Program-made: the position numbers and the translations under genes
Source: Branchiostoma floridae
Taxonomy: Eukaryota; Chordata; Leptocardii; Amphioxiformes; Branchiostomatidae
DNA length: 64,000 bases
Direction: 5' to 3'
NCBI RefSeq assembly: GCF_000003815.2
Contig: NC_049985.1
Span: forward strand, 16,321,604-16,385,603
In this document: piece after piece, positions 10,301 to 58,786 of the stretch
Layout: the number at the start of each line of letters is the position of its first letter
Numbering within the stretch: position 1 is the first letter of the stretch
Notes under the pieces: model-generated
The model's input: only the letters and a program-made list of their open reading frames with translations
What the model was told of the DNA's origin: nothing
Databases searched by the model: none

Positions 10301-13300
10301 ACCAGGTGGAAGTATTCCAAATCCAGGCAGTGGGGGTATTGGTGGTCTACTCCCAGGTAGTCTTACATCAGGTTGTGGTCTCCCTGGTCCAAAAGGTGGG
10401 CTATTAAACTCTGCAAAGTTCTGCATTCTTGCACCAGATGGACTTTGAGTATAGGCTGGACTTGTGTGTGTGTGTCCAGGAGCAGCCGGTGTGACTACTG
10501 TAGCTACTGCAGTCTGCCGCAGGGGACTGTTAGGGGGTGTACGGGATCGAAGACCAGCCAACAGTTGTCCTGCAGATCGGCCCTGGAGAGCTTCTGGTGC
10601 ATGTGGGGGCATCCATGTTGGAGCAACTTGAGAGCCCCAAGAAGGGTACTTCCCGTGCGGGCAGGGCCTCTGTCTCGCAATGATCAACTGTCGCATGGCG
10701 TTTGCAGCTGGGCCACCCTGGATGAGCATCTGTGCCTCATTTGCAGACACTCGTACCCCTGATTTCTCGCACTCCGGGCAACCTATCTTGTTGGAAAGCT
10801 CTTGTGACTGGATGATGAGGGACTGTTCCCTGGCTCCTGGTCGGGGCAATGCGCTGTGGCTGCCCATGGTAGTTTGAGCAGGGCTAGCTTGTGTAACAGC
10901 TGTTGCCACACCAAGTTGTGATGATGACAGAGTTGCTGTTGATGTCACAGCATGTGTTGAAGGCATCACAGTTGTTGTTAGGCCATGTGTTGAAGTCATC
11001 ACAGTTGTTGCTATGCCTTGCATTGAAGGTGCTAAGGATGCTGGTTGTTTCGCTGGACTTACGGTTGTTGCGGACCCTTCTAACATTGGTGCAACAGTTG
11101 TCTTTGGCCCTCGGCGCCCTCTCTGTGTTCCCTTCCTAGGGCTGGTCGAATAGCTGTGCTCAACGGGAATCCTAACGCCAACACCAGCTGTCTGCCCTGT
11201 GCTTGTAAGTATTGGTTGGTGAGCTGGGGCCGACGTTGGGCTGGCATCAGGACCGATTCTGGTGGGCTGTTTTACGTTCTTCACAATTGCAGATTCTACC
11301 ACATCTCCGATGGTCATGACTGGAACATGGAGGCCAGTTTCTTGTCTCTCAGGAGCCTGTCCAAGGCCTCTTCCTGCAGGGGGAACCATCTGGGTAGGTT
11401 TCTTTGTAGCTGCAGGCTCCTTGTTAACGTTTTTTGACGGCAATGTTCTTGCCTTCTGAAACCTTTGCTTCTGACTCAAGGCGATGTCTTCCAACTCCGA
11501 GTCATTAAATCCCTGACTGTCAGAGCTTCGATTCACACTGCCTTGTGAAAGGTTTGGGCTGCTGGTTGGTGAGCCTAACATGGTGTCCAGAAGTTCAGGC
11601 AGATCTTTTTCTTGGAATTCTGGAGATGAGGAAACAGTTGAAAACGTGGGTTTCAGGAAGGCCTTGCAGCTGTCCTCCAGTTCCTTCAGCTCCAGCCTAC
11701 AGGTCAGGCAATACAGCAAACATTCAGTCAGAGAAGCAAATTTCTTTCATTTCTTTTTACTAGGTACGTCCAGAAAGTTGCAAACTGATTTTAATGGATG
11801 AAACAGTTTAAAAGGAAAAGACCGTCATATTTCTGTCTCTTAATTCAAAACAATGTCTAATAAACACGTCACAACCAAACACAATTTCAATTGTCACTAC
11901 ATTTCCATAGCCTTCGTTGACCTAAGGTAAAAGTGAACCGAGCTTGCTCACAATGTAACTTTTAGAAGTACAATGTATGTCTGACTTGCTTTGCTTGACA
12001 CCAACAAGAGGTACAGAGTTAAAATCTGATGATTCTGATTGTAAAAGAAAAGAGAGAGGCAAACTTACTTTTGAGCCACCCTCAGCACATTTGCAGCCAA
12101 AACTGCATCACTCAGGGAGATCTTTCCACCATACATGTACTCTAGAGTAGTTAGTACTGTATCCTTTTCATAGTCAGAGAAGTCCAGTGCAGCTAAGTCT
12201 TTGTCATCTTTCACCTCCAGCATCTGTTTGAAACAACAGTTGGGAAGCTAAGCTAACTTTTGTGATTTTCAGATTGGGATACTGTTTCTAACAATAGGAG
12301 ATATAGTGTCTAGTGCTGTTAATCAAAGAGTCCTTAAAGGTCAAATTCTACCATTGGCTATTTATCTTTCCCTATTGCATAACTGGCTATGTACCAAATT
12401 TGTGTCTAGTCATTGAAGAAATTTGCAGGTGCCCTTTAGTCAGGCATTGGGAACCTCAGAAAGTTTTGTAAGAATCCTAAAGTCATGCTATATGTATAAA
12501 TATAGAATATAACACAGTGTTTTCCACAGGTCATACCCAGGTCGGAAAACACCAGGTTTAATTTCAAAACAATGATTATCATAAAAAGGATAAAATTCGA
12601 CACAGTTTCAACCTACGGCAACAACTTTATTCTTTAAGAACATCCATTTGCTCGCATTGGCAGGCATGGACTGCCTTCTATTTAATCAATGGAAGCCTGT
12701 GTGATACAACTAAGAAGCCTGTGTGATACAGAAAATTATCACTCGGTCTGTAACACCATATCAAACGTTATTTCGGCCAAGGTATGACAATACTGCTATG
12801 CCTTTTTAAAAGATATATATTAAACACTAGAAAGGCCGACATTTGCTTAGGAGCAAATACAGCATATTGCAATCCATCTTCATCCTTGAGAAAATCCCAA
12901 AATTCAACAATTTGAAATAATGTTTGCTCAAAGGGAAAATGAAGTACTGTGGGCACTTGTCCTACACACCTTCATGCCGAATTTTAGGTCATTTGGTTTC
13001 AATATAAGGGCATAGGAGCCAAAAATATACATTTTTAGTTAAAAATGACTAACAATCCCAAAATAACTCATTTTATAAGTGCTCTATGAAGAAAGTGTTG
13101 ATGGGGTCCTGTTGTCATATGTCCAATTTACCTTTGTACCAAATTTCAGGTCATTTGGTTTACATACAAGGGCAAAGAAGCCAAAATATAATTTTTTAGT
13201 CAAAAATGGCTGAAAACCTTAAAATAACTAATTTTTGAAGTGATCTATGAAGAAAGTGTCGATGGGGTCCTGTGAGCATATGTTCAATGCACCTCTGTAC

Positions 13301-19300: not shown

Positions 19301-22300
19301 TATGCAAGATTTCTACAAAATAGTGATACTATTAGTATTACAAAATAGTTATTATAACAGGAGAAAAGAGGATAAAACATACATGACTGGCCTGCCTGGC
19401 TTGCGGGGCCTCTTTCCTGCAGTACCTGCTGGTCCCTCATGGTGTCTCTTTATACCCCTACAGTGACATACATGTAATGGAGTACATGTATGTGAGAAAA
19501 ACTGGATCAAGTCAGTCAAAACTGGTCTAGTAAAGTCTAAACCTAAATCATGTCTCAATTTTACCTTTAAGACAACAATATTGTGTGTCATGTAGCATAC
19601 AAAGAGCAATGTTGCTTCTGCGACATGGGGAAGTTGAGATAAATGATGATTAGTTAGTAATTCTAAGTTTTGAAAACTCTGTCCTGTTTGAAACCATGAG
19701 AAAACTTTGTCATGTTACCTATCTGTCATGTTACAATCTGCATAATGATAACTGAACACGAAACTGATATTCCGAACCTTTGCTGCTGTTGAGCTGGCTG
19801 TAGTTGAGACCTGGGTTGGTTCTTTCTGCGAGCCTCTTTCTCTTCCTCTTGCTTTTTCACCAGTTCCAGCAGCTGTGCCGTGGTCACCCCGTACTGTACA
19901 GCACAGCGCTTCAGGTGGGACTGTCTCTGCTGTGAAGTCGTAAAAAGACACAGCAAAAATGAGCTTAGTTTTCTTAGACAATCTCAGCACACTATCACAT
20001 ACAAAATGGGCTCTGCAGGCAGCCTACGGTTGCATAAGATAATCCAAAGCTGGCAGAGGAGTAAAGCCGGCCAAGGAGTATGTATGCTCTGGTAGCATAC
20101 ACACCCCTAGGCCAGCTTCACTCCACTAACAGCTTTTGATACTACCTTATGCTACCGTAGGATCTGTTGGGAGATTATTTCTGTCTACTGTCTTCAAAAA
20201 TGTCAATTCTAGTCATTTTACCATCCATTTGGATATCAATAAATTGTTTCTTATTGACATCATTATTTTCTTTAATTTTCTACTAAGATCAACTACCAAC
20301 AGAAAATTACCAAAACAAAAATTAGCTATGTGGCTCAGGTTTTACATGTAAGGCTATTTGAATGACAAAAAAACAACAAGCCCAATTACAATAAGGTTCC
20401 CCCATACTATAGATCTTCAAGCAACTGAATGGGTTTCAGATAGCATCTGATTCAGCTATCATTGTAAGTGATTGTAAAAGTAGCGTATACTATGACCTGG
20501 AACGTCTGAACATTTACAAATCAATCCAATTGTTAGAGTAACTTTTGTACTGTGTATCTTATATGATGTCTAACCTTCATTAATACTAAGCCCTGTATCA
20601 TGGGTATTCTTTGACATCAACTTCTACATATGAGATGATAAAAGAAAAACACTTACTGCCCTGCTTTCCAGCACTTTGCCACAGATGGGACAGTCAGGAA
20701 CATCTTTAATGTTCTGCTCTGCGTGCAGTTTTTTCTCCGTCTCCATGGCGTCAATACAGCGGTTGATGTGCTGCGTTCTCCGGACAGTGTTGAGATGAGT
20801 CAGATCACGTCCACAGATCTGACGGTGACGCATTTCAAAACATGTACGCATTTCAAAACAGTACAAAACTTTAGGCCAAAGCAAAATTTGTATCAAAGTA
20901 ATGCCATTCTTCTATGAAAAACCTTGGTCTATACAATATGTATACCATGTGAAGGTCCTGTTAAACCAGCCTAAGATTTCCACTTTTGTGGGCATGGCCC
21001 TCTAACCAGCTTAATGTTTTACCGAAAGAAAACACTTAGGAGATTCTCTGATTAGCTGACACTGGTGAGAAGTCAAACTCATGGAAAAGTGGAAATCTCA
21101 GCTCCGTTTTAGCAGAGCCCCCATGGTTTATAGTATATCATCATCATAGTGCAGGCTATCTTCATTATAGTATAAGGTAAAGCTCTACATATACATCATA
21201 GAATAACTAAGAAATGATGACATTTGTTCCATCTTCTTAGCAAAAGAAATAACTTCAAAAGATAGAAAAGTTTGTTTGGCAACTACAATCTTTAAGTTTA
21301 AGCTTGCCACAGTTCAAGTGCAACACAGACTATGCATCAAATGATCACTGAGAGGACGGTAGAATTTTTCTTCCTTTACCTGGCAGAAGTAGAACTCTGC
21401 ATCTGTAAGCTGCTCTTCCATCAATTTGTCTTCCTCCCTCTGCTGTAAGTGGCGGGCAAAACTCTCATCATCAGACACCTCTGTTTGGAGAGGAGAGGGA
21501 ACAAATTTCGGTCAAACCATCAGTAATTAAAAGAGAGGTTATACAGGAACCGTAGATTGCCAAACCAATGAATTGGTTGGAATCACATGACAGACTTTTT
21601 ACAAGGAAATGACAAGGCTCTAAAATTCAAAACTCAAATATCGCATTAACTTAAAGGCAAAATCATATGAACTACTTACCTAAGTCCATTAGGCCCTCTT
21701 CTGCAGGTTCAGGCAGGTGTCTTAGACCAGTATGTCTTGAGGAATGTTTGTCTGACACAAACCGCTGTCTCAAACAAGTCTTCATGTGTTCCTTCACTGC
21801 CTCTTCTGTACCAAATATGGTCTGTTTGCATGTTAGACAGGTTTTCCCCTCCTTGTTTTCTACATTAACTGGCACACTGCTAGTCTTGCCAGGGCCCTTC
21901 TCTGTAGAAACTGTTGTGTCAGGACTCGCGGGTTTGCGTACTTTATCTTTGGCAGCCTTCTTCACTGCGCGACTGCGTAACTTGCGTACAGCGGGCTGAA
22001 AAGTTTTCCCTGTTTCCACAAAGTCACTGCTGTTGTCCAAATTTCCATTCTCTCCGATGAGACGCTTGAAATTTAGCGCTGCTCCCTTCCCGTTTGCTCG
22101 AGTCTTTGCCTTCTTCACCATCTTCCGAGCGAGTGCTTCCTTTGCTGTTGGGGTCCTGGGCTTGGCTTTGCTTGGGGTGATGCTTGGGTCATTGATGTTG
22201 TATGACTTCTGAGGACTGATGTGCATCGGTAGCTTTGGTACCACAACACTCAGATTGCGACTTTCTGTCATCATGGTCGTCATTTCTTTTGGAGCTGACA

Positions 22301-22889
22301 CTTTCTGACTATCCTTTTCAATCAGTTGAGACCTTTTTCCTTCTGATTTGTCACTTTTGCCTGGGATGTCATCCAAAGTCAGGACTTGGACGACTTTCTT
22401 TACTTCCTTTACTGGGGCTGATAGACTGATCTGAGTCAGCAGGTCTTCTGTTACTGTACTACGGGAGGGTGCGGAAGTCTCTTTACCAACCACGTCTTTC
22501 ACTGATTCTATTACACTACCTTCTGTTGGTTTGTGCTGTGCTTTAGCCTCACTGGCTGGCTTTGCTACTTTCTTTTGTGGTACTTCTGTTGCTGTACTGG
22601 GTTTTGCTTGACTAGGATTTTGCTCAGTGCTTTTTGACAGTGGCTTGGTTACTTCAACCTTCTTTTGAGAGTCCTGCTTTCTCTCACTATCACTCTTTGA
22701 CTGTCGCACTTCGAAGCTTTTTTCCGTATCGGCACTAACACTTGCCCTCTGCTTTCCTGTTTTGTGAAATTTCTCTGGCGTTGTATTTCTCAACACTTCC
22801 TCATCTGAGAGCTTTCTTAGCAAAACGCTGGGGTTTAGGTTTACTTTACTTGCCTTAACGTTCATCACACTTTTGATATTGCCTGACAT
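1515..22889 (-). CDS. SLX4: SLX4 structure-specific endonuclease scaffold, 20 coding exons
   Basis: SLX4 is a nuclear scaffold that binds SLX1, MUS81-EME1 and XPF-ERCC1 for Holliday-junction and crosslink repair. I joined 20 exons (minus strand): 22889-21680, 21480-21380, 20818-20657, 19929-19778, 19457-19383, 16981-16841, 16249-16162, 15698-15501, 15043-14894, 14711-14427, 14109-13945, 12223-12069, 11696-6743, 6606-6282, 5638-5532, 5218-5131, 4335-4137, 3051-2994, 2296-2213, 1706-1515. All junctions are GT-AG and the total is 8889 nt, giving 2962 residues against about 1834 in human. Domain order is that of SLX4: UBZ4 zinc fingers (about 350-510), BTB (about 855-961), a long low-complexity region, SAP (about 2757-2786) and a C-terminal SLX1-binding domain (about 2872-2962). 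Start chosen at the first Met of the open first exon; a 5' noncoding exon may exist. Gene identity is secure; the exact N-terminus and possible microexons are less so. Confidence 0.93.
2440..2665 (+). mobile_element. Possible truncated non-LTR element 3' tail
   Basis: AT-rich stretch followed by a GC-richer block containing cctccccttcactctg and ending in the short tandem aaataaagaaataaa. This is the layout of a 5'-truncated LINE 3' UTR in SLX4 intron 18 (between the exons at 2994 and 2296). There is no ORF; assigned on layout only. Confidence 0.35.
3832..4025. mobile_element. MITE, tactgtaaatgca family, copy 1
   Basis: 194-bp palindromic element with inverted ends tactgcaaatgca and tgcatttacagta and inner blocks rich in cgcggt and ccgcga. 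A terminal TA at each end fits a TA target duplication (Tc1/mariner-like). Two further full copies lie at 56939 and 62398. Confidence 0.85.
4569..4916. mobile_element. hAT-like MITE in SLX4 intron
   Basis: 348 bp. Ends cagggttgtagccagcctg and (reverse) cagggtagtagtcagagcct are imperfect inverted repeats. Flanks ttcagaag and ttcagtag form a 7/8 match, an 8-bp target duplication typical of hAT. The interior carries a chance ORF. Confidence 0.75.
5131..5638 (-). CDS. SLX4: SLX4 exons 15-16: TPMP motif and SAP domain
   Basis: Exon 5638-5532 ends with TPMPDYPNMETPELK, a hallmark of SLX4 just before the SAP domain. Exon 5218-5131 continues KKFGVRVLKKPQMVAKLTEI and then YQYTHQ, the helix-turn-helix SAP fold. 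In vertebrates this SAP region binds MUS81. This is the clearest single piece of evidence for the gene assignment. Confidence 0.95.
6282..6606 (-). CDS. SLX4: SLX4 exon 14, acidic segment
   Basis: A 325-nt exon, very rich in Glu and Asp, with the motif MYDLEPYHEDHFWDD. It follows the giant exon in phase 0 and leaves in phase 1, matching the next exon. It shows no known fold and could be a protein-binding acidic patch. Confidence 0.82.
6743..11696 (-). CDS. SLX4: SLX4 exon 13, giant 4954-nt exon
   Basis: One uninterrupted open exon of 1651 codons, more than half of the protein, between BTB and SAP. It is low complexity: Ser/Pro/Thr/Gln-rich with many SP/TP sites, basic clusters (RPKRKGDKRGRGR) and acidic runs. 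Near its end are two candidate SUMO-interacting motifs, IIELSDDDDD (+ strand about 7250-7290) and EKIDLTQE. Vertebrate SLX4 has its SUMO-interacting motifs in the same interval. Remaining open over nearly 5 kb argues it is coding. The splice acceptor (phase 2) and donor (GTAAGC) fit the neighbouring exons. Confidence 0.92.
12069..14109 (-). CDS. SLX4: SLX4 exons 11-12: BTB/POZ domain
   Basis: Exon 14109-13945 encodes the first half of a BTB domain (LSDLNLLCRNGEVIHVHKFVL is its core: an Asp-Leu strand followed by the His-Lys-Phe-Val-Leu helix). Exon 12223-12069 encodes the second half (DFSDYEKDTVLTTLEYMYGG). In vertebrate SLX4 this BTB drives dimerisation. The intron between them has taken in a repeat of about 1.1 kb (12825-13905). 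Confidence 0.92.
12825..13905 (-). repeat. Tandem-core repeat element, copy 1 (between BTB exons)
   Basis: About 1.1 kb. One end has tattgcaatcccatac followed by its mirror gtatggattgcaatata; the other end has tattgcaatccatcttc. Inside are about five imperfect tandem units of about 160 bp (accaaatttcaggtcattt recurs at about 13138, 13300, 13459, 13622). A copy in opposite orientation is at 48264-49346, and both share the border string aaaggccgacatttgctt. No ORF, so non-autonomous. Confidence 0.85.
14427..16981 (-). CDS. SLX4: SLX4 exons 6-10, linker to BTB (candidate XPF-binding region)
   Basis: Five exons (16981-16841, 16249-16162, 15698-15501, 15043-14894, 14711-14427) with consistent phases. 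Exon 6 has a helix-like segment (QVAMAMSMSLVEKE) similar to the short repeat after the UBZ domains in other SLX4 proteins. Exons 8-10 are Ser/Pro/Lys-rich and contain several SP and TP sites. In vertebrates the XPF-ERCC1 binding region lies between the UBZ4 fingers and BTB, so these exons should hold it, but I cannot pin the contact residues. Confidence 0.82.
16589..16752. repeat. 82-bp tandem duplication
   Basis: Two adjacent copies (16589-16670 and 16671-16752) beginning gatatgacag and containing cttttggcatctactgta, differing at only a few positions. It is a recent local duplication in an SLX4 intron. Confidence 0.85.
17023..17825. repeat. MITE-derived minisatellite next to SLX4 exon 6
   Basis: About 14 units of 50-63 bp, each with gggtctactgtaaat followed by cttgaaacttttgttgtctt. 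The array begins with tactgtaaatg and ends with aaatgcatttacagta, which are the two ends of the tactgtaaatgca MITE. It therefore appears to be a MITE whose left end was amplified in tandem. It starts about 40 bp from the acceptor of the exon at 16981. Confidence 0.88.
19383..19457 (-). CDS. SLX4: SLX4 exon 5, AT-hook-like basic segment
   Basis: A 75-nt exon (phase in 2, out 2) encoding a Gly/Arg/Lys/Pro-rich stretch that includes KRPRKPGRP. This resembles an AT-hook, which binds the minor groove of AT-rich DNA. The frame requires this exon between exons 4 and 6. The function is inferred only from the motif. Confidence 0.75.
19778..20818 (-). CDS. SLX4: SLX4 exons 3-4: tandem UBZ4 zinc fingers
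   Basis: Exon 20818-20657 completes a finger begun at the end of exon 2 (FYFCQ then ICGRDL, ending HINRC) and opens a second one (CPICGKV) that is finished in exon 19929-19778 (SHLKRC). The order and the FYFCQIC and CPICGK signatures match the two UBZ4 domains of vertebrate SLX4. These bind ubiquitin chains and recruit the complex to crosslinks. An intron cuts each finger. The second exon continues into a charged coiled stretch rich in Glu, Lys and Gln. Confidence 0.92.
20018..20168. repeat. Imperfect palindromic MITE
   Basis: Arms agcctacggttgcataag and (reverse) atcctacggtagcataag, with inner matching blocks aaagctg and agtatgtatgct against agcatac. Lies in SLX4 intron 3. Superfamily unclear. 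Confidence 0.65.
20480..20590. repeat. Dispersed repeat ending gatgtctaaccttcatt, copy 1
   Basis: Shares the order acgtctgaacatttacaaat, gagtaactt, gatgtctaaccttcatt with stretches at 37640-37750 and 60225-60325. Three diverged copies in the window identify it as a repeat family. Confidence 0.6.
20954..21120. repeat. Palindromic MITE relic
   Basis: Imperfect arms of about 35 bp: ggtcctgttaaaccagcc with gatttccacttttg at one end, and aaaagtggaaatctcagc with cgttttagcagagcc at the other. In SLX4 intron 2. Confidence 0.65.
21680..22889 (-). CDS. SLX4: SLX4 first coding exon with an N-terminal zinc finger
   Basis: First coding exon, 403 codons, rich in Lys, Ser and Thr and mostly without predicted fold. 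Near residues 352-373 it has a Cys-x2-Cys, 13 residues, His-x3-Cys pattern (CLTC to HMKTC), which looks like a UBZ4 ubiquitin-binding finger. It lies ahead of the two fingers that match the human UBZ4 pair. The exon ends in phase 1 at a GTAAGT donor. The sequence upstream of the ATG has no clear acceptor close by, so transcription may start just upstream or at an unseen leader exon. Confidence 0.85.
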
Positions 22890-23231: not shown

Positions 23232-23473
23232 CTGGAAATGAAACAAGAATAGAATTTGTATGAATTTTGATCATGTTACACAATGTAAAATATTGTTACG
23301 TAATAGGTATACTCATAAATAGTAACACGATACAATGGTAAAATAAATAAGCTACAAAATACTAAACAATCAGGGCCTACTCCTAGCAAAATAACTCCCA
23401 CCATTCCATCAAACTAGTTCATTGTCTGGAAGGGTTCAAATGGTTTTGCAGTAAACAAACCTGTTAAAAAACT

Positions 23474-23654
23474 ACAGTCAAACCTGCACTTAAAGTGTCC
23501 GTCTCTACATAAGAACTATCTGACCAATGCGATCACTTTTTGGTGGTCGGTTGAATATTTTTTCCATTGACACAGGCATTAAGAAACCTGTCTACAGTGA
23601 CCAACTCTTCACATAGACTATATTCTCATTGTCCCCTGAGTGGTCTTCTTGAGC
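23474..23654 (+). repeat. Dispersed repeat acagtcaaacctg, copy 1
   Basis: Matches the reverse complement of 40478-40654 over its length: cagtcaaacctg, ctacataag, actttttggtg, cacaggcattaagaa, gagtggtcttctt occur in the same order. Divergent old copies of one family. Confidence 0.7.
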
Positions 23655-30857: not shown

Positions 30858-31733
30858 GTGCTGGTCATTAAATCTGTGAAGCACACAATGAATGAGTGTA
30901 GCAAAGAAATCTGGAATTGTGACATTTGTATGAAAACCCTGGACGATAAAAAAGGATGTCAAGCCTTAACATGCGATGGCTGTGAGAAACATTACTGCCT
31001 GACCTGTACCAAATTTGAGCAGGGTGAATTCAAGGCCCTACGTAAACTACAGAGGGATGATGTATGTTGGTTTTGCACAGGATGCAAGAATGACCTACAT
31101 AAGATGTTGAAAAGGGGGAAAGAAAAACAAGACAACAATGCCATCCTGGAGAATATCCTAAACAGACTTGACAAAATTGAAGAGAAAATAAGTACAACAA
31201 AAGAGACAAAGCCACGGGAAGAAACCGGTACCGGGCAGGTGGAGGAAATTGTGAAAAAGACCATAGCTGAACACAAAACAGAGGAAAGGGATAGAGAAAA
31301 TAGAGAGATGAATATAATCATCCACAGAGTACCTGAGCCAACTCAAACAAATGCAGAAGAAAGAGGGATACATGATACAAGGTTTGCTGAGCGGCTGTTT
31401 GCTGAACCACTAGAACTGGGTAAGATTGACATTAGAAACACAGTTCGGCTGGGGAAGAAGAATGAATCAACACCGAGACCCCTAAAAGTGGTACCACAGA
31501 ACAAAGATGACAAGAAGAGAATCATGATCAGACTCAAGAAGCTAAAGCATGCAGATGAAATGTTTAGAGGCATCAGCGTATGTGATGACCTTAACAAGGA
31601 AGAAAGAGAATTGTTGAAACAAAAAGTACAAGAGGCTAAAGATCTGGAAAAAAACCAAGAAACGGAGGGCTACTGGAAGTACCGAGTAAGGGGCCCTCCG
31701 TGGAACCTCCAAATAAGGAGGATAAAGGCTTAG
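30858..31733 (+). CDS. LINE ORF1: PHD finger and coiled-coil RNA-binding protein
   Basis: 291 residues. A PHD-type zinc finger spans about 20-77 (CDIC, CDGC, HYCLTC, CWFCTGC). A coiled coil follows (about 90-150, ILENILNRLDKIEEKIS), then an L1-ORF1-like domain (NIIIHRVPEP, about 150-280). ORF1 proteins coat the element RNA into a ribonucleoprotein. A second Met at residue 11 (30888) may be the true start. It overlaps ORF2 by 34 nt in a different frame, so ORF2 translation needs reinitiation or frameshifting. Confidence 0.85.
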   Translation: MLVIKSVKHTMNECSKEIWNCDICMKTLDDKKGCQALTCDGCEKHYCLTCTKFEQGEFKALRKLQRDDVCWFCTGCKNDLHKMLKRGKEKQDNNAILENILNRLDKIEEKISTTKETKPREETGTGQVEEIVKKTIAEHKTEERDRENREMNIIIHRVPEPTQTNAEERGIHDTRFAERLFAEPLELGKIDIRNTVRLGKKNESTPRPLKVVPQNKDDKKRIMIRLKKLKHADEMFRGISVCDDLNKEERELLKQKVQEAKDLEKNQETEGYWKYRVRGPPWNLQIRRIKA

Positions 31734-34648
31734 AATCAGAAAACATCAACCAAGGAACAAACTGCAGAAAAAAGTCAGACATTAAAGTCTTATACACCAA
31801 CATTGACTGCCTAACTAACAAGAAAGCAGAATACCTTGCGGTGATAGATAATGAGGCACCTGATGTTATAGTTACAACAGAAACAAACCCGAAAAACTCA
31901 AGATTCAAAATGTCACCAGCAGATCTACAAATAGCAGGTTATACGGTGCACACAAATGCAATGAAGGATGGAGTACGTGGTGTTGCAGTACATGTCAGAA
32001 GTAACCTAGTTGCTGGGGAACCGGACATGCCTGAGGAAGTTAGAGCTATGGAGACAGTTATGGTAGAGGTAAAGCTCCATCAGAATGATAAATTACTAAT
32101 CATGGCAATATACAGAAGCCCTAACTCAACTGTGGAAAACAATGAGAAACTGTACAATATGCTAAAGAACTGCAACAGGGGGAAATATACCCATGTGTTA
32201 CTTCTAGGAGATTTCAACTACCCAGACATAGCCTGGAGAGAAGGCGAGGGGTTGACACGCTCGGCCAACAGAGAAGGGAATAAGTTTCTCGAAGCCACGA
32301 GAGACGCCTATTTATTCCAACACGTGTCATTTCCTACAAGGCATAGGCCGAGTCAAGAAAGCAACATACTTGATCTGATATTCACCAATGAAGGACACAT
32401 GGTTGATGACATAAAGACAAGTCCACCTATTGGGAAGAGTGATCATGTTGTACTGTCTTTCGTGTATAAGTGCTATGCTGAGAGGTCTCAGACTAGACCA
32501 GAGTACTTCAAGTACAATAAGGGGGACTATCAACAGATGGCGCAAGAACTTGATACGGACTGGGAGGAACTCCTATTAGGCAAATCAGTAGAAGAAAGTT
32601 GGCTACTTTTTGCTGACAGGGTAAAAGGCGCCACAGAGAAATGCATACCAAAAGCGACTTTAAAAATGAAAGAAGGTCTACCATGGAGAAACAGGGACCT
32701 CATAAGTAAGCTGAACAAAAAACAAAAAGCTTGGAAGAAATATCAAGAATCAAAAAAAGACAAAGATTACAAAAGCTATACAAAGGCAAGGAACCAAGCT
32801 CGCTGGGCAGCCAGAAAAGCCGCAAAAAACTACGAGAAAGAAATGGCATACAACATTAAGGGCAACCCAAAACTGTTTTGGAAATATGTAAATAGTAAAT
32901 CCAAGACAAGAGAGAGCATCCCAGAACTAAATGATGGAAATGAAATTGCAAAAACGGACAGAGAAAAAGCAGAAACTTTAAATAAATTCTTTGTGAGCAC
33001 GTTCACTGAGGAAAGAACTGGCACCATACCACAAGCAAAAAAACAAAATGTGAATGCACTGCTGTCTATGGTTGAACTGTCAGTGGAGGACATTGGCAAG
33101 AGACTGAAAGAGGTAAACCAGAATAAAACCATGGGTCCAGACGGGATTCATCCGAGAATTCTGAAGGAACTGGCAGAAATCCTGGCAAAGCCACTGTACA
33201 TTATTTTTAATAAGTCACTAGAAGAGGGGAGGTTACCGAATGACTGGAAAGTCGGGCATATCACGCCAATATTCAAGAAAGGGAGTAAAAAACTACCGAG
33301 TAATTATAGACCAGTGAGCCTAACATCAGTAACAGGAAAGATACTGGAAAGTATCATCAGAGACGAGATCGTAGATCATATGCGAGCTCACAGTCTGTTT
33401 ACAGAGAACCAACACGGCTTCCTACCGGGAAGATCCACGACGACACAAATACTAGAATGTCTTGACGACTGGACGACTTGGATTGAGCAAGGCTGGCCAG
33501 TGGATGTAATATATCTCGATTTCCAAAAAGCTTTTGACTCGGTACCAATTGAGAGACTACTGAGAAAGGTCGAAAGCTACGGGATATGTGGTAACTTGCT
33601 CCAATGGGTGAGGTCTTTCCTGACGGAACGCAAGCAGCGAGTTTGCGTGAACGGAGCACGCTCAAGTTGGGCAAATGTCACTAGCGGAGTACCGCAGGGT
33701 AGCGTTCTCGGTCCGGTTCTATTTACAATTTTCATCAACGACATGCCAGAAGTAGTACAGAGCAAATCAAAACTTTTTGCAGACGACACGAAAGTCTATC
33801 GAAGTGTATGTAACATAAAGGACTGTGAATACCTACAGAAAGACCTTAACAGCTTGCAAGAATGGGCAAACAAGTGGCAATTAAGGTTCCACCCCAGCAA
33901 ATGTATTGTTCTGAGGGTGGGCTCTAAGCACCCAGAGTTTACATACCACATGATTGACCAGTCTGCGGCGAAGGTGAACCTGACCTTCAACAAAGAGGAA
34001 AAAGATCTGGGAATTACTATAGATCAAGACTTGATGTTTGAAAATCACATCTTATCCATTGCATCAAAGGCCAATCAAATGGCGGGTATCATGTGGCGAA
34101 CATTCCACCATGTGGATAAGGAAATCTTCACTCTGTTATATAAGTCACTAATAAGACCCCACATTGAGTATGGTGGCCCGATATGGTCCCCGAGTACGTG
34201 GAGATTGACTGACCTCTTAGAAAATGTGCAAAGGAGAGCGACGAAAAGGGTTCCCGGTCTGAAGGATCTATCATATGAAGAAAGACTCCGAGCCTTGAAA
34301 TTGCCAACACTACTGTATCGACGGCTGAGGGGAGACCTCATCAATACGTACAAATATGTGCATGGACTGTATGACACAAAGCCTTGCTTAACAGAAAAAA
34401 TAAGGGACAGCAGAACTAGGGGTCACAGTCTACGCCTAACAAGATGTGCATCAAACAACAGCAGAAGACAGGCTTTCTTCAGTAGTAGAGTGGTACCTTG
34501 GTGGAATGGGTTGACAGAGGAGGTGGTAACAGCACCGTCAGTAAACAGTTTTAAAATAAGACTTGACAGACTGATGGAGAACCACCCAGTAGTGTACAAC
34601 TACAGGGCCTTGGATAATCCCCATAAACCAAACATCACAGTCAGCTGA
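31700..34648 (+). CDS. LINE ORF2: AP endonuclease and reverse transcriptase
   Basis: 982 residues, uninterrupted. The N-terminal APE-type endonuclease has YTNIDCLTNK, the acidic TETNP (about 60), LLGDFNYPDIAW (about 168-179) and SDHVVLS (about 248). The reverse transcriptase has GPDGIHPRILKEL, NYRPVSLTS, YLDFQKAFDSV (about 604), SGVPQGSVLGPVLF and the catalytic FADD (about 692-695). A C-terminal conserved region follows. The protein nicks target DNA and copies the element RNA into it. All catalytic motifs are present, so the copy may be competent. No RNase H domain was seen. Confidence 0.95.
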   Translation: MEPPNKEDKGLESENINQGTNCRKKSDIKVLYTNIDCLTNKKAEYLAVIDNEAPDVIVTTETNPKNSRFKMSPADLQIAGYTVHTNAMKDGVRGVAVHVRSNLVAGEPDMPEEVRAMETVMVEVKLHQNDKLLIMAIYRSPNSTVENNEKLYNMLKNCNRGKYTHVLLLGDFNYPDIAWREGEGLTRSANREGNKFLEATRDAYLFQHVSFPTRHRPSQESNILDLIFTNEGHMVDDIKTSPPIGKSDHVVLSFVYKCYAERSQTRPEYFKYNKGDYQQMAQELDTDWEELLLGKSVEESWLLFADRVKGATEKCIPKATLKMKEGLPWRNRDLISKLNKKQKAWKKYQESKKDKDYKSYTKARNQARWAARKAAKNYEKEMAYNIKGNPKLFWKYVNSKSKTRESIPELNDGNEIAKTDREKAETLNKFFVSTFTEERTGTIPQAKKQNVNALLSMVELSVEDIGKRLKEVNQNKTMGPDGIHPRILKELAEILAKPLYIIFNKSLEEGRLPNDWKVGHITPIFKKGSKKLPSNYRPVSLTSVTGKILESIIRDEIVDHMRAHSLFTENQHGFLPGRSTTTQILECLDDWTTWIEQGWPVDVIYLDFQKAFDSVPIERLLRKVESYGICGNLLQWVRSFLTERKQRVCVNGARSSWANVTSGVPQGSVLGPVLFTIFINDMPEVVQSKSKLFADDTKVYRSVCNIKDCEYLQKDLNSLQEWANKWQLRFHPSKCIVLRVGSKHPEFTYHMIDQSAAKVNLTFNKEEKDLGITIDQDLMFENHILSIASKANQMAGIMWRTFHHVDKEIFTLLYKSLIRPHIEYGGPIWSPSTWRLTDLLENVQRRATKRVPGLKDLSYEERLRALKLPTLLYRRLRGDLINTYKYVHGLYDTKPCLTEKIRDSRTRGHSLRLTRCASNNSRRQAFFSSRVVPWWNGLTEEVVTAPSVNSFKIRLDRLMENHPVVYNYRALDNPHKPNITVS

Positions 34649-36533: not shown

Positions 36534-39500
36534 ATGCCTTCCAACAAGTCCTCCTCAACCATCTACCAGTTCTACAACTGCCGCATTCTCAAGGATGGGA
36601 AACTTCAAAGGTACAAAATTCAATACAAATTCTACTCCTACATTGTATTGGACGGACATTCATACTTGCACCAGGTCAACAAAATATGATTTAGGTATAG
36701 ATGTAAATGAGCCCATTATAGATACAATTCAGACATTACAACCTTATGAGTTACAACATAGATAGATCCGATAGCAACCACATCTGTCAAAACGTAGAAC
36801 TGCAAAATAAAAGCATAAAGCCAAATATTTGACAGACATGCAATGATTCTCGCAAGCAGCTAATAGCTATGCAGTCATAGGTTAGATTGCTAATTGTGAT
36901 AGACATTCAGGATTGGTTTATTCTCAATTACTATTCATTTGGTAATCCTCAAGTCTTCAATATTTCCAGATATGTTGTTTTCATCAGTAGTGCAGAATAA
37001 GGAGTAGGAAGATGAAGATGAAGATGAAAGTGTCAGTTCAGTTGTAACTTTAAGTATGACTCCGACATAATACCTTAAAAATTCAACTAGTCTTCCATCA
37101 TCATTATCCTTGTGGTAGTCCTCAATATATTTTAGATATTGATACAGATGTTTCATGTATCGTTTTTGATATTTCAGGGAAGACTTATGGATAAGAGATG
37201 GGAAGATCCTCAACCCAGAGAAGCTGTTCTTTGATGAGAAGGGGTATGCAGATGTGCGGATTGACTGTAAAAATCTCCTCATCGCCCCAGGATACATTGA
37301 TGTACAGATCAATGGTAATCATTTTCTAATTGTCTTATTTGATATCTATATGTATTTATTTGCTTTTGTTTTGTTATGGTGCATAATGCATATGATATAC
37401 TGGTTTATTATAGACAATACACAAGTGTCTCAGACAACTGGATTTTTGTTAACAGTCAGATATTATTCAAATATAACTACGTTTGTACTAGTATACATGT
37501 AGCATTGGCTGTCTTTTGTCAGTGACTGATGAAAGATACTTGATGCTATCTAGATGCTAACTAGCTAGTTAGCATCCAGATATAGCATCAAGTACATTGT
37601 ATCTTTATACTATTATTATATAGAGTCCCTGGTAAAAGATACTGGATGCTACACGGAATGTCTGACCGTTTACAAAAATTGATCCAGTTGCATGACTCAT
37701 GAGTAACTTCTGTATTTGGCATCTTGTGACTTGGATGTCTAACCTTCATTGACACATGGTTTATAGTAATTACAAAATGACAATTACCAGAAAGTTTGAT
37801 TCATGTATGTGTTTTGCTCCAGGTGGGTTTGGGGTTGACTTCTCCTCAGACGTGGAGAATTGTGAAGAGGGAATTTCCAAAGTTGCTAAGGGACTGCTGG
37901 CCTATGGCTGTACATCGTTCTGTCCAACTATAGTCACCTCACCTCCTGAGATATATAAACAGGTAAGATAATGTATTACTTGTTCATTTGTGTTTTAGTG
38001 TTTAAGTATAGTAAAAATCCACAGTTATTCATTTAGCAGTACTGTATTGGATGCTGTGGATGCTTTGAACAAAAATGCTTAAAATCGGATTTTATTTTCA
38101 GATCCTCCCAAGGATAAAGTTGAGAGATGGAAGCTCAGAAGGAGCAGGGGTGTTGGGTAAGTTGTGCTAAAATACAATAGCTAGCATTATTTTGCCATGG
38201 CTTTTTTTAATAAAAAAAACATTGCTATATTGATAAAATAATAAAATGAAAAAAAGTCTGTCCATTTTTTATTAGAACATATAGGCATTTCATCAATGTG
38301 CTAAAATCTGTATGTATATCCTAAACATTTATACAAAGGAGAAACATTTGACAAACTATGTACTATACTATGTACATGTAGGAGACATGGAACAGTATTC
38401 ATAACACGAGAAGTAAAATCTCCATATATCGTAGTACATACAGCTCTTCTTGTTCAACAATATCTTTGTTCTTGATAAATTGTTAAAGAAATCAAAAGGC
38501 TGTAAATATCTGGATTTAATGGTTTGACCAAGAACATGGCTTGAGATAGGTGCCTGATACTCATGATGATGTTTTTCTCATGTATGATCTACACAGGAAT
38601 ACATATTGAGGGACCCTTCATCAGTAAAGACAAGAAGGGAGCCCATCCTGAGAGGTACCTTAGGAAGTTCCGGCAGGGCTGGGATGATGTGTTAGACACC
38701 TACAGTACCCTGGAGGGTGTCAGGCTCTTCACCATCGCACCTGAACTGGAGAATTCCTCTGACATCATCAAACAAATGGTCAAAAGGAACATCAGAGTTT
38801 CTGTAGGTAGGTGGTCTGTGTCTGTGGTATACATCACAAGTCAACCTTTCAACATCTGTATTACCAGCTTCTTTGTTTTGCATAAAGCCATGCTGATTCA
38901 TTTGTATGGATGACATCCTCTGGGGACCAAGTGCAAAAGTATGGCAAAAAAAGTTGCCTTCATTATGAAATCTAAATAGTCAGGAAGGTTGAACAAATGA
39001 CTAAACACATATGGTATGGTGTACTGAACATCCTCTTCATCTTCTTTGACTTTGAAGTCACTGACATTGACATTTTATGACATAAGTGACCGTTTTTTGT
39101 TGCAATATACAGCATATTTTGCACCTGCTTTGTACAATTTGCAGTGTGATTGAAACTTTTCTTCAACGGACCAAAATTGACATGCACTCAAATGTCATCC
39201 TTGTAATCAAATCAACACGAGTTTTGTACAGTAAGTACAAGCTGTGTAAGACTTAAGACTTTAAAGTTTGACAGTACAGCACAGCATACCGGTATCCTGT
39301 CTGGCCATTGGTAGAGGTCCCTAGAGTCGGCAACTTCATTGAATGATACTGATGGACAATTTTTGTTGAATTTCGTAAAGCCACAGGTTTCTTGAAAAAA
39401 GTTCTTATTACTTGTTTGCATTGTTCCTGTAGGGCATTCCTCAGCTAACCTGTCGCAGGCGGAAGCAGCTGTGAAAGCAGGTGCCACCTGTATTACCCAC

Positions 39501-42500
39501 CTGTTTAATGCCATGGGACCGGTAAGTATATGTTTAACAGTTGTAGGGGATATACTAGTAGGCAGAAAGATTGCAACATGAGATAAAAACATTACTTATA
39601 CTGGTAGAAATAGTTTCATTTCTTCACGGTTTACCCAATTTCAAAGATGCTTAAAGTCTTAAACAATTAAAGACTATGAAAATGTACATTTGACAAACAT
39701 ACCTAACATATATGTAAGGAAGGCTCTATGAAAAGTGACATACGAAGATTTGACCTGTAATAAATGTATTATTGTCCCCATGTCATTTACATGTGCCAAT
39801 TATTATCATAATGATATGAAGTGGTAAGAAAGACATTTTCTTTCTACATTTTTAGTTGGGAATAATGCCAAGAGAGAAATATTTTGTATTTTTGTTCTCA
39901 TTTATTCATTTACCTATTTACAGCCTGCTAGCCAATTTTCTGTTGCCAAGGGCAATCCCTATAGCTAAGAATACAAAAAGTACAATGGAACATGTGTAAA
40001 AATCATAAACTACTATATCTAAGGTTAGACTCATAGACATTTCTACCCACAGTTCCACCACAGAGACCCAGGGATAGTTGGGCTACTGACCAGCCACAAG
40101 ATTCCCAAAGGAGTGACCCTGTTCTACGGGATGATTGCTGACGGTATCCACACGGACCCTGCTGCCTTAAGGATAGCGTACAGGGCACATCCACAAGGTT
40201 AGCAATAGCCCGCGTACCAACACTACAGGCTTTCAAGAAAGCCATTACCAACTACTATTAGAGCTATTGGTACTCACCGCCTCCCAGATACAGGAAGGCG
40301 GACAGGGATTAGCACCCCTGCCCTTGAGGAGCTAGGCTCCCCATCTCTTACCACTCACACAAACATAAAGCAAAGAAATAAAAAGCGACCACCACTAAAC
40401 CAAAAACCCTTGTCCACGTCTGGAGTCTTCAGCTTTATTGAAGTTGGACGTGCACATGAAGACGATACTTCCTTTAGTAGTGCAAAACTGTCCAAGAAGA
40501 CCACTCGGGGGACTGGTAAAGTCTGGACTGTGTGGATAGGTGGTCACTATAGGAAGAATTCTTAATGCTTGTGTCATTTGGAAATAACACCAAAAAGTCG
40601 TCACATTGGCCAGGTTGGCCTTATGTAGGGTGGTCACTTGCACAGGTTTGACTGCAATCTGTTTTTTATATAAACTCTGTAAGGGTGTGGTTTTATACTG
40701 TAATACATGTATTATGATTAGAACCACAGGAACTTTTAGACAATTGTCTTTCCTTGACTGTACATTTCTATTGGTGGTTAAAGGGATGTAGACATTGGAT
40801 GTATGATTTGTGTTTAGTCAGTTGCTTATTTTAGTAACGTCTTTTATTGTTGAACACATATACCATGTAACGTGTCATCGCATTTCTATAACCCCAACTA
40901 ACCAGTATGATTCCATGCCATGTTGCTTATTCATCTCATTCATCATCATTTTGCATCATTACTAACCAGCATTTCACCATTCACAAGTGTTTGCTGCTTT
41001 TACACACTACATATGCATTGAACCTCTTTTTAATCAACATTTTCATTTCATGTGCCTCTCTGCAATGCCAATGGTGAAAGATCATATTTAACTAACCAGC
41101 TTGCTTTTGTACCATACATACGCACCTACAACTAACCAGTGTCGATCTTAAGGTTCCACATTGTTACAAACATGACAATAGATAGTTTTACATTTGATTT
41201 TGTACTCGTAAGAGAATCCAGAAAGTTTGTCCTGGCCAAATGATTACTTAGTAGATCTAATGACACTTAATGTTCTTTGGAATCATTGTTGTCTTAATAA
41301 TTTTTTCTCATAAGGTATTTATGGATGATTCAATGCAATTCTTGCACACGCTTGCCACAACACTTTGTAGGACTGATGGTCGTCACGGATGCCATCAACG
41401 CCATGGGGTTCCCTATAGGAACGCACAAAATCGGACAGTTAGATGTCGACGTCACCTCCGATGGTCGGGCCTGCATCTCAGGAACCAATACTCTCTGTGG
41501 AAGGTACCATTGTCGACAGGCGGGGGTCTCCCCATTGCATGGAGCACTGGTGTTCAGCTTTGTGGACCACAGAAAACACACCACAGCCACATTTTTCTCC
41601 CTTAAATCTGTTTCAGAAGTCTGACAGCTTTCACATTCTTTCTTGTTGATTGAAGAAAGAAGAACTGAAACTCATAGTTTTTATTCAAGTTCTATTTAAG
41701 ATTACACCCCTTAAATATAATCTGCGTGTACCAGATTTTAAATGATTAAAAGTGTTGATGACACAATAACCTGACCTATATTTGACACCGTCATGCTCCA
41801 TGCTCTAGGGAGACCCTAAGCTGTTTGCGTGCCATCCCTCTCTTTTCTGATGCCTGCACCAAGAGTGAGTGACAGCTGAACATGACAGCCATATGTAGTG
41901 CGGATGTACAACATCACACCAGTACACTGCCGCACATGTAGTTGTACTAACTTCAGTCGCCAGTTCATTTACAAAAGAAAAGCACCAGTTGGAGCAAGAG
42001 AACATGATGATAATTTTCTGCTCTTTCAGTCAGTTGTTTTACAAGAATTCGTCTTCGAATTCTAAAACGTCCCCCTCAGTGTTTTTCTTTTTGGTTAACC
42101 GGTATACAGATATTTCCTGTCCCAAGTCACTAGGAACTAATATGGCATGATGCTCAGCAATTAGCTTTCATTTTGGAGCCAGCATCAGAAAGGTCTGCCT
42201 AGCCCTCCTTCCCTAGTACTGATGGTGATACCATACATATGAACACTACAGGTATTGTGCTGGTCACTGATGCCATCACAGCCATGGGTTTACCGATCGG
42301 CAGCTACAAAGTTGGGCAACAAGAGTTTGAGGTGACGCCCGAGGGCAGGGCCTTTGTTCTGGGGACCAAAACTCTCATTGGAAGGTACAATAGCCACGCC
42401 CTCATGATGTTCAGAGTTCTCTGATGGATCAGAAGTCCATAAAATCTCTGTAAAAAGTAGATGACCAATATCTGATTTTACCTTCCAACAGTTTCTACCT

Positions 42501-43461
42501 CTGAGTCTGTGATAAGCAAACAATTCATACCACATGTAGGACAACCCTTTCCCTTCTCTAATTTGTAAAAAAAGAAGAACTGAAATCTAAATTTAAAGGC
42601 CCCACTAAAATCTCTTTTAATTTCTGCTGCCTGATCTTTGTAGTTTTTGTCCATATGAATTTAGTTTAATGTTTTTTCAATCTTCTTTAATCGTCTTTTA
42701 TACTTAAGAGAATTACTTCAATTAACTCTGATAGAGCTTTGTGAGCCATTACAAACTGTAGGCTTTGCCTTACTTTACAGGTCCATTTGCATGTTAACTT
42801 TCAGTGCTAGTGATTTGTCTGTCTCTGAGAGTCTGTATATGCTATGTCATCTGTCTGTATATGCTATGTTAGACATCCTCAGTGCAAGCTTTAAACTTGA
42901 ATAAAACTAGAAAACTTCTTTCATATATTTTCAGGGAAGTTCCATGTTCAGTAGTGTTCTGCAACATAGCATTTCATTTATTACACAGCTAAATTTGCGC
43001 AAATCCTGGCCTTCATAATCTGCAGTATTTCTAGTACATGTAGTTAGTTCAAAAAAACTCGCATTGCACTGGTTGTGTTCTTTTTAATTAATGATGGAGT
43101 TTTAGAACATTTGTTTGCTTTTGTAACGATTTTCAGTCCTGTGTAACTGATAAAATCTCACCCGTAGTTGTTTGTTTTTTCCTCTTCCAGCATTGTGACA
43201 ATGGACAAGTGTGTCAAACACTTTCTAGAGGCAACAAACTGTTCCATTGAGGAGGCCCTGGAGGCTGGCACGCGCCACCCGGCAGAGATGATGGGTATTG
43301 CAGCTCAGAAAGGGACTCTGGACTACAACTCTGATGCAGATTTTATCCTTCTGGACGATGAGCTGAACGTCCAGGCAACGTACATTGCAGGGGAACTGGT
43401 GTGGGATAAAGTCACAGGGAACCATGATAAACGTGTCATACAGAGGAAGGGTATCAGTTGA
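36534..43461 (+). CDS. AMDHD2: N-acetylglucosamine-6-phosphate deacetylase
   Basis: Hydrolyses GlcNAc-6-phosphate to glucosamine-6-phosphate and acetate in the cytosol, returning amino sugar to the hexosamine pathway. Exons: 36534-36610 (exon from 36516), 37178-37314, 37823-37962, 38102-38156, 38597-38806, 39433-39521, 40053-40197, then either 41371-41503 or 42252-42384, then 43191-43461. With one alternative exon the product is 418 residues (human about 409). Amidohydrolase signatures: [17 protein letters not shown] (about 61), HIEGPF (metal-ligand Glu141), GHSSA (His208), THLFNAM (His229), DGIHTD (His269) and VTDA (catalytic Asp291). Start is the first Met after the acceptor at 36515; [19 protein letters not shown] matches the family start. 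Confidence 0.95.
37640..37755. repeat. Dispersed repeat ending gatgtctaaccttcatt, copy 2
   Basis: Same family as 20480-20590 and 60225-60325, with gtctgaccgtttacaaaa, gatccagttgcatgac, gagtaactt and gatgtctaaccttcattgac. A small palindrome (gatgctatctagatgc) lies just upstream at about 37540-37590. Confidence 0.6.
38936..39215. repeat. Dispersed repeat aaaaaaagttgccttc, copy 1
   Basis: Parallels 60415-60740: aaaaaaagttgccttcnttatgaaatc, then cttcatcttctttga, then gcatatttt with gca, then ggancaaaattgacat, then tcatccntataatcaa, in the same order. Old interspersed element within AMDHD2 intron 5. Confidence 0.6.
40478..40654 (-). repeat. Dispersed repeat acagtcaaacctg, copy 2
   Basis: Reverse-orientation copy of the repeat at 23474-23654, in the AMDHD2 intron before exon 8a. 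Confidence 0.7.
41371..41503 (+). CDS. AMDHD2: AMDHD2 alternative exon 8a
   Basis: 133 nt, with acceptor tttgtag and donor aaggtacc. Encodes [16 protein letters not shown], then [23 protein letters not shown]. It enters in phase 1 and leaves with two bases, exactly like exon 8b. It has the catalytic Asp but departs from the usual family GTKTL as GTNTL. The open frame and intact splice sites argue against decay. Confidence 0.85.
42252..42384 (+). CDS. AMDHD2: AMDHD2 alternative exon 8b
   Basis: 133 nt, with acceptor cactacag and donor aaggtaca. Encodes [16 protein letters not shown], then [23 protein letters not shown]. Same length and phases as exon 8a, 748 bp downstream of it. GQQE and GTKTL are closer to vertebrate AMDHD2, so this is probably the ancestral form. 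Including both exons (266 nt) or neither shifts the frame of the last exon. Confidence 0.9.
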
Positions 43462-58448: not shown

Positions 58449-58786
58449 CAGGGCTCGAAATACCACCTGCATATGGGGTTAGTGCAGGTAAAATTGGAGC
58501 TGTGCAGGTAATTTCTGGTGTCTACCTGCACCTAACCTGCACTGGTCCATGTGCTGGGTATTATACATGTCCTTTAATGTAGGTGTATATGGATTGGCAT
58601 AATAGGCTTTGACTGTTTACCACCTAGAGTATAAAAGAACAAAATAGCAATGGTTCCTGAACAATTTTAGTATGATCCATACATCCTTAACTCAGAGTGG
58701 TACTGGTAAAATATGCCTCAGGTGCAGGTAATTTTCAATGTTACCTGCACCAGTGCAGGTATGAAGAAAAAAGTGTTTGAGCTCTG
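58449..58786. mobile_element. hAT-like element with gtgcaggta motifs and 5-bp TSD
   Basis: 338 bp from cagggctcgaaat to gtttgagctctg, flanked by atgtt on both sides. Subterminal regions repeat gtgcaggta and tacctgcac many times. Same end sequence as 24649-25002 but a different internal motif. Confidence 0.82.

Follow-up and report, generated by a model that had tools for sequence, protein, structure and literature searches.

Does the AMDHD2 gene of amphioxus carry two interchangeable versions of the exon that encodes its catalytic aspartate, and if so, what would the exchange alter in the enzyme? The question is raised by a stretch of 64,000 nucleotides of Branchiostoma floridae DNA, analyzed here in full and called the window. 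A preliminary description of this DNA had pointed to two consecutive exons of 133 nt with identical phases, both encoding the same block of the protein, including the catalytic VTDA motif, and differing from each other at quoted residues. We refer to the upstream copy as exon A and to the downstream copy as exon B, and to the proteins containing them as the A and B isoforms.

A complete and apparently single-copy AMDHD2 gene

The plus strand of the window contains a complete gene for AMDHD2 (GlcNAc-6-phosphate deacetylase), the coding exons of which are listed in Table 1 together with the other features of the locus. To build the splice model, all AG/GT borders within 6 nt of those set by eye were tried and an open frame was required. 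One solution with an open frame was obtained, and it gives a protein of 418 aa with exon A or with exon B.

Table 1. Coding exons of AMDHD2 and intronic features of the locus, with positions counted from the first nucleotide of the window
Feature	Position	Strand	Basis
Coding exon 1, from ATG	36534..36610	+	splice model, tblastn
Coding exon 2	37178..37314	+	splice model, tblastn
Coding exon 3	37823..37962	+	splice model, tblastn
Coding exon 4	38102..38156	+	splice model, tblastn
Coding exon 5; equivalents of human E143, A154	38597..38806	+	splice model, human alignment
Coding exon 6; equivalents of human H211, H232, N235, A236 (last three in THLFNAM)	39433..39521	+	splice model, human alignment
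Coding exon 7; equivalents of human H242, R243, H272, I280	40053..40197	+	splice model, human alignment
Cluster of four ACTAACCAG (starts 40897, 40961, 41091, 41131) in the intron before exon A; candidate QKI/SF1 (STAR) sites	40897..41139	+	
Alternative exon A, 133 nt; residues 285-328, VTDA, probable lid; more derived copy	41371..41503	+	
Intronic stem, arms 41523-41546 and 41794-41817; possible but unremarkable	41523..41817	+	
Second intronic stem, arms 41842-41864 and 42171-42193; possible but unremarkable	41842..42193	+	
Alternative exon B, 133 nt; residues 285-328, VTDA, probable lid; copy nearer human AMDHD2	42252..42384	+	
Last coding exon; stop TGA 43459-43461; most pyrimidine-rich acceptor of the gene	43191..43461	+	

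The closest solved relative of both isoforms is human AMDHD2 (7nut), which scores 553 bits with the B isoform and 547 bits with the A isoform. Both isoforms also lie above the cut-off of 225.65 bits for TIGR00221, the nagA equivalog model (B, 275.1 bits; A, 271.2 bits), and both lie below the cut-off of 483 bits for a second NagA model, NF008371 (B, 214.0 bits; A, 220.3 bits). Among the non-human NagA chains found in the PDB, the A isoform outscores the B isoform on 8 of 9; B is higher on 2vhl and on the human chain. A protein search of the species' own genome, in which 11 candidates were scored, returned 9 matches at E values up to 0.001. Since all of them fall in this one locus, AMDHD2 appears to be single-copy in this genome.

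Two exons locked to a common frame

Exon A is preceded by TAG and followed by GTACC, and exon B is preceded by CAG and followed by GTACA. Both are entered at phase 1 after position 40197 and left in the same phase toward position 43191; the coordinates and phases given in the preliminary description proved exact. When both isoforms were used as tblastn queries against the window, each copy was found by the other isoform (E values of 2e-11 and 1e-11). The remaining matches outside the exons of the gene had E values of at least 0.93, and no third copy of the exon was seen in the 64-kb window. The two exons thus are neighbors of similar length and identical phase, with matching borders and recognizable homology, and either of them completes the open frame, which both together do not; these are the DNA-level marks of mutually exclusive tandem-duplicated exons. 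At the RNA level, the class is recognized by junction reads that connect each exon to both of its neighbors, with reads that join the two exons to each other either missing or frame-shifting (PMC5740500).

The two ways of departing from one-of-two splicing differ in their predicted outcome. With both A and B included, the frame runs into a stop after 334 aa; this stop lies 117 nt before the last junction, a setting that predicts nonsense-mediated decay. With neither exon, translation would end after 286 aa, at a stop a short way into the last exon, and the transcript could yield a truncated product lacking the catalytic Asp that need not be removed by decay. Because the stop in the latter case lies in the last exon, only double inclusion predicts nonsense-mediated decay. 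The frame lock proposed in the preliminary description holds to the extent that either exon alone leaves the frame open and both or neither put it out of frame; its corollary, that only one-of-two splicing gives a protein, has to be relaxed to allow for the truncated protein that skipping of both exons may produce.

Two familiar devices for keeping such exons apart were considered and rejected. A mismatch between U2 and U12 splice sites does not apply here, as both donors begin with GTAC and both acceptors end in AG, and neither donor looks to be of the U12 type by eye. Steric exclusion has been proposed to operate when donor and branch point are less than about 50 nt apart (PMC7969005). The intron between A and B, at 748 nt, is far longer than this, and steric exclusion is therefore not expected, barring a distant branch point; exclusivity would need a regulator or decay.

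Divergence of the pair and evidence for constraint

Exons A and B are alike at 25 of 44 residues and at 88 of 132 nt, and their 44 nucleotide differences are spread over codon positions 1, 2, and 3 as 12, 6, and 26. The corresponding estimates are a pS of 0.66 and a pN of 0.22, with a dS of 1.59 (near saturation), a dN of 0.26, and a dN/dS of about 0.17. The homology of the two blocks, the presence of the Asp in both, and the individual residue differences quoted in the preliminary description can all be read from the translations.

Random mutation rarely produces a pair like this. When exon B was mutated at random to the same distance in 20,000 runs, 0.07% of the products were open with at least 25 of 44 residues kept. 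We also simulated divergence with one copy neutral, using exon B as the ancestor, an omega of 0.15 for the other copy, no variation among sites, and four mutation loads of 1,500 runs each. None of the 6,000 runs gave a pN of 0.223 or less, a cut-off that is slightly strict in that the script's own observed values were 0.228 for pN and 0.645 for pS. Simulations with an omega of 0.15 to 0.2 in both copies gave a pN of 0.19 to 0.25. The failure of all neutral-copy runs, together with the low dN/dS, argues that both copies have been kept as coding sequence. It would seem very unlikely that either copy has been neutral or decaying over the history of the pair, a very recent loss being beyond the reach of the simulation.

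Apart from the border GGAAG-GTACNAT, the introns that flank A and B have only short matches in common, of which the best is 17 of 18 nt. With flanking introns so little alike, the duplication is an old one. The identity between A and B (25/44) is near that between B and human AMDHD2 (26/43). The human sequence agrees with B only at 8 columns and with A only at 3, and A and B agree against human at 7; these counts do not decide whether the duplication or the split from vertebrates came first.

The swapped block carries the catalytic Asp and probably the lid

In human AMDHD2, the equivalent of the swapped block comprises residues 288-331, and the Asp of VTDA is D294, the replacement of which by alanine left no detectable activity (PMC8970586). 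The same paper identifies E143, H211, and H232 as Zn ligands; N235, A236, H242*, and R243* as phosphate contacts; A154 and H272 as sugar contacts; and I280 as a dimer residue (PMC8970586). In our alignment with the human protein, all ten of these other named residues are kept and lie in constant exons, and the equivalent of D294 is present in both A and B.

The human enzyme also has three extra antiparallel strands (strands 15 to 17) inserted after barrel strand 8 and helix 7; these strands have the highest B-factors in one monomer and were proposed to act as a lid of the active site (PMC8970586). From this topology and from general amidohydrolase anatomy, D294 should lie at the end of strand 8, with the last barrel helix following GSI. 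The swapped exon, placed by topology and not by coordinates, would then probably span the catalytic base plus the three-strand lid. The preliminary description had seen the catalytic Asp only, and the probable inclusion of the lid extends it.

The pattern of residue differences fits a retained function in both copies. The Asp and two glycines, one after VTDA and one ending the block, are invariant in human AMDHD2 and 8 bacterial relatives, and they are kept in A and B. Where human and B share Gln, Glu (at two positions), and Lys, exon A carries Leu, Asp (at both), and Asn, respectively. The residue before the final Gly is Ile in B, Cys in A, Ser in human, and Ala in 6 of the 8 bacterial sequences. 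Judging from these sequences, both copies should encode active enzymes whose lids are tuned, and a dead copy is not expected.

Splice signals and an ACUAAC cluster before exon A

The intron before exon A contains four copies of ACTAACCAG within 243 nt, all on the coding strand. The word occurs nowhere else in the window on either strand, and by calculation only 0.2 to 0.3 copies are expected per strand per 64 kb. It was also absent from both strands of 20 sampled 10-kb stretches of the same contig (20,179 of the 200,000 bases being N). In the same background, the shorter word ACTAAC reached a density of at most 2 per 250 nt across 40 sampled 10-kb strands. ACUAAC is a site common to SF1 and QKI, and in mammalian cells strong repression of RAI14 exon 11 by QKI requires both of the two ACUAAC elements that precede it (PMC13004596). 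Exon A, with 4 copies in 243 nt, thus has the upstream clustering of ACUAAC seen for QKI-repressed exons, and by analogy we hypothesize that the cluster is a repressor element of exon A. The cluster begins 474 nt and ends 240 nt upstream of the exon, and the AG-free stretch before A measures 54 nt. The copies were rejected as branch points for exon A, being at least 240 nt from the acceptor and beyond this stretch.

An evident decayed tandem repeat was likewise rejected as the origin of the cluster: the mean identity of the sequences flanking the ACTAACCAG copies is 27%, compared to a background of 26%, and the copies lie in no tandem array. A 22-nt ATTCATCATC array at 40929-40950 is located between two of them. 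Two copies are included in a pair of 26-nt direct repeats (40896-40921 and 41090-41115; 73% alike), within which some shared origin is possible. Clusters of a 9-mer with unrelated flanks also occur elsewhere, which, like the repeat pair, weighs against a special meaning of this one: there was 1 more among 7 groups in the window and 4 among 199 in the 200-kb sample, though none in 30 simulated windows.

The splice sites of the pair are in part weak. By a matrix score over the nine donors of the gene, based on assumed base frequencies, exon A has the lowest value and exon B ties with exon 1 for the second lowest. U1 pairing energy does not set A and B apart: four donors have the same value of -5.6, and exon 2, at -5.1, has a weaker one. 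The pyrimidine fraction before the acceptor is 0.47 for B, the lowest of the gene, 0.65 for A, which is ordinary, and 0.94 for the shared last exon.

Other sequences in the introns and elsewhere in the window

One TGCATG, an RBFOX-type word, is found at 41536, 33 nt past the exon A border and within a stem arm; with 22 occurrences on the plus strand of the window, its position may be due to chance. The intron before A also contains, outside the ACTAACCAG cluster, one member (40493-40668) of an inverted pair of dispersed repeat pieces, the other being at 23465-23651 (about 70% alike).

A non-LTR retrotransposon lies on the plus strand (30858-34648, with a tail to about 34755), roughly 1.8 kb before the AMDHD2 start codon. 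Its first frame, of 291 aa, looks Cys-rich near the start and has no Pfam match; its second frame, of 982 aa, encodes an endonuclease-reverse transcriptase (Pfam RVT_1 and Exo_endo_phos_2), and the element ends in a TCTAC repeat. On the minus strand, a single open frame spans 6722-11719; its 1,665 aa match neither a Pfam model (E values up to 0.001) nor any solved chain (E values up to 0.01). On the same strand, 21672-22889 contains an ATG open frame of 405 aa with no match in Pfam or among PDB sequences. The word GTGCAGGTA / TACCTGCAC is repeated with unrelated flanks at 58482-58761 of the window and at about 9080-9331 of one background stretch (L026); this looks like a dispersed element rich in that word.

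A proposed mechanism

These results make it very probable, as judged from the genomic sequence, that A and B arose by tandem duplication and serve as mutually exclusive exons of AMDHD2, a single-copy gene that probably is able to make two versions of the enzyme. In transcripts, exon 7 would be spliced to either A or B, and the chosen exon in turn to the last one; products of double inclusion would be removed by nonsense-mediated decay. Going by the human structure, the exchange would replace the end of barrel strand 8 with its catalytic base, together with the strands of the lid. With the other named active-site and dimer residues constant, both isoforms would be active deacetylases, and it is the behavior of the lid that may be tuned between them, in turnover, in affinity, or in tolerance of the acyl group or the sugar. 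More tentatively, the choice of exon might be helped by the weak splice sites, and a Quaking-type protein bound to the ACUAAC cluster might hold back exon A and leave B as the default.

A more far-reaching version of this explanation is that the swap of catalytic base plus lid yields two deacetylases of different specificity, that a Quaking-type tissue switch acts on the ACUAAC cluster, and that it is through splicing, not gene duplication, that the hexosamine pathway is tuned. One isoform might then serve GlcNAc-6-P, for example, and the other tolerate GlcNGc-6-P or another acyl sugar. AMDHD2 is described as limiting for the hexosamine pathway in mouse stem cells, and the human enzyme as specific for GlcNAc-6-P and inactive on both GalNAc-6-P and GlcNAc-6-S (PMC8970586). 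We regard this version as rather unlikely.

Alternative explanations

Exon A might be a decaying leftover of the exon duplication, with only B in use. It is the more derived copy, with 3 columns at which it alone matches human AMDHD2 compared to 8 for B, and its donor has a lower matrix score than any other in the gene. Against this, A remains open for 44 codons with VTDA intact, it exceeds B on 8 of the 9 non-human NagA chains in the PDB, and the low amino-acid divergence observed was reached in 0 of 6,000 simulations with one neutral copy (a test that does not cover very recent loss), all of which makes a mere leftover highly improbable. We think it quite improbable, too, that exon A is mainly a dosage switch, the addition of which to a B transcript would shift the frame and trigger decay. 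A poison exon needs no constrained, NagA-like frame of 44 codons, even though the stop created by double inclusion, 117 nt before the last junction, is within reach of decay; the two roles could also coexist. As for an assembly artefact or an allelic copy, we found no point in favor of it, and its probability is close to nil: the copies differ at 44 of 132 nt, their introns share the border and short matches only, the DNA of exon A has one match in the assembly, and the protein search finds one place for each exon.

The remaining alternative, exclusion by intronic RNA structure of the docker-selector type or by compacting stems, opposes only the regulator part of our preferred explanation and not the exon pair itself. 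Duplication of a stem arm has been proposed as the origin of docker-selector-type structures (PMC6071210). The intron between A and B contains two stems that beat shuffled sequences (the best scored 20.8, with 0 of 60 shuffles as high; the second scored 17.1, with 2 of 60), and a 14-nt stretch downstream can pair with the exon B donor. However, when the window was divided into 170 half-overlapping real segments, 19 had a stem as good (2 of these contain the same stem), and 8, one being this locus, had both stems of such quality. The stems thus beat shuffles but are ordinary compared to real segments, and they were downgraded as an exclusion device. Sequestration of the splice site at exon B by this donor pairing (inverted repeat I7) was rejected, as this pairing, although no other stem in its region scores higher, does not exceed shuffles (P of 0.48). 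Exclusion by RNA structure seems unlikely on this evidence.

Comparison with known systems

Among the matches listed in open-licence PubMed Central, mostly judged by their listing, there was no paper on mutually exclusive exons in AMDHD2, and those on mutually exclusive exons in amphioxus held nothing on AMDHD2. The main texts of two surveys of human mutually exclusive exons do not name AMDHD2 (PMC9741552, PMC5740500). The AMDHD2 pair presents itself as a convincing further case of a known exon architecture, well supported at the DNA level.

Exons 9 and 10 of PKM are mutually exclusive, equal in length, and frame-locked, and they belong to a metabolic enzyme. The AMDHD2 pair resembles them in equal length and frame lock and differs in that the catalytic base is swapped, since the PKM swap alters allostery and the subunit interface instead. 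Nearest in kind is ketohexokinase (KHK), the alternative exons of which are named 3a and 3c and the fold of which is unrelated to that of AMDHD2. Like the AMDHD2 pair, KHK is a metabolic sugar enzyme with one catalytic residue in the swapped region; its tandem-duplicated exon substitution holds Arg108, which is kept in both isoforms (PMC9741552). The KHK isoforms are established, whereas those of AMDHD2 are predicted from DNA. Human mutually exclusive tandem-duplicated exons in general are described as mostly ancient, with key functional residues kept (PMC9741552).

In ACSL1 and ACSL6, mutually exclusive exons swap the fatty-acid gate to the active site; the authors stressed one Phe/Tyr difference, and transcripts with neither exon exist (PMC1543647). 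A probable active-site lid, placed by topology, would likewise be exchanged in AMDHD2, but here the catalytic base is inside the swapped block and 19 of 44 residues differ. As for regulation, RAI14 exon 11 shares with exon A the repeated ACUAAC upstream of an alternative exon. It is a skipped exon studied in mammalian cells, and its ACUAAC elements are real branch sites (PMC13004596), unlike those of AMDHD2, which are at least 240 nt from the exon A acceptor and each directly followed by CAG. Amphioxus itself provides an example of the exon class in Fgfr, the homologous and mutually exclusive exons IIIb, IIIc, and IIIx of which are spliced in a manner tied to Esrp (PMC5703972); these differ from the AMDHD2 pair in encoding part of an immunoglobulin domain of a receptor. 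If our interpretation is correct, splicing of the catalytic and lid block in a chordate would constitute a natural experiment on how a lid controls turnover and substrate choice, and an amidohydrolase would join the enzymes in which a segment of the active site is swapped by mutually exclusive splicing.
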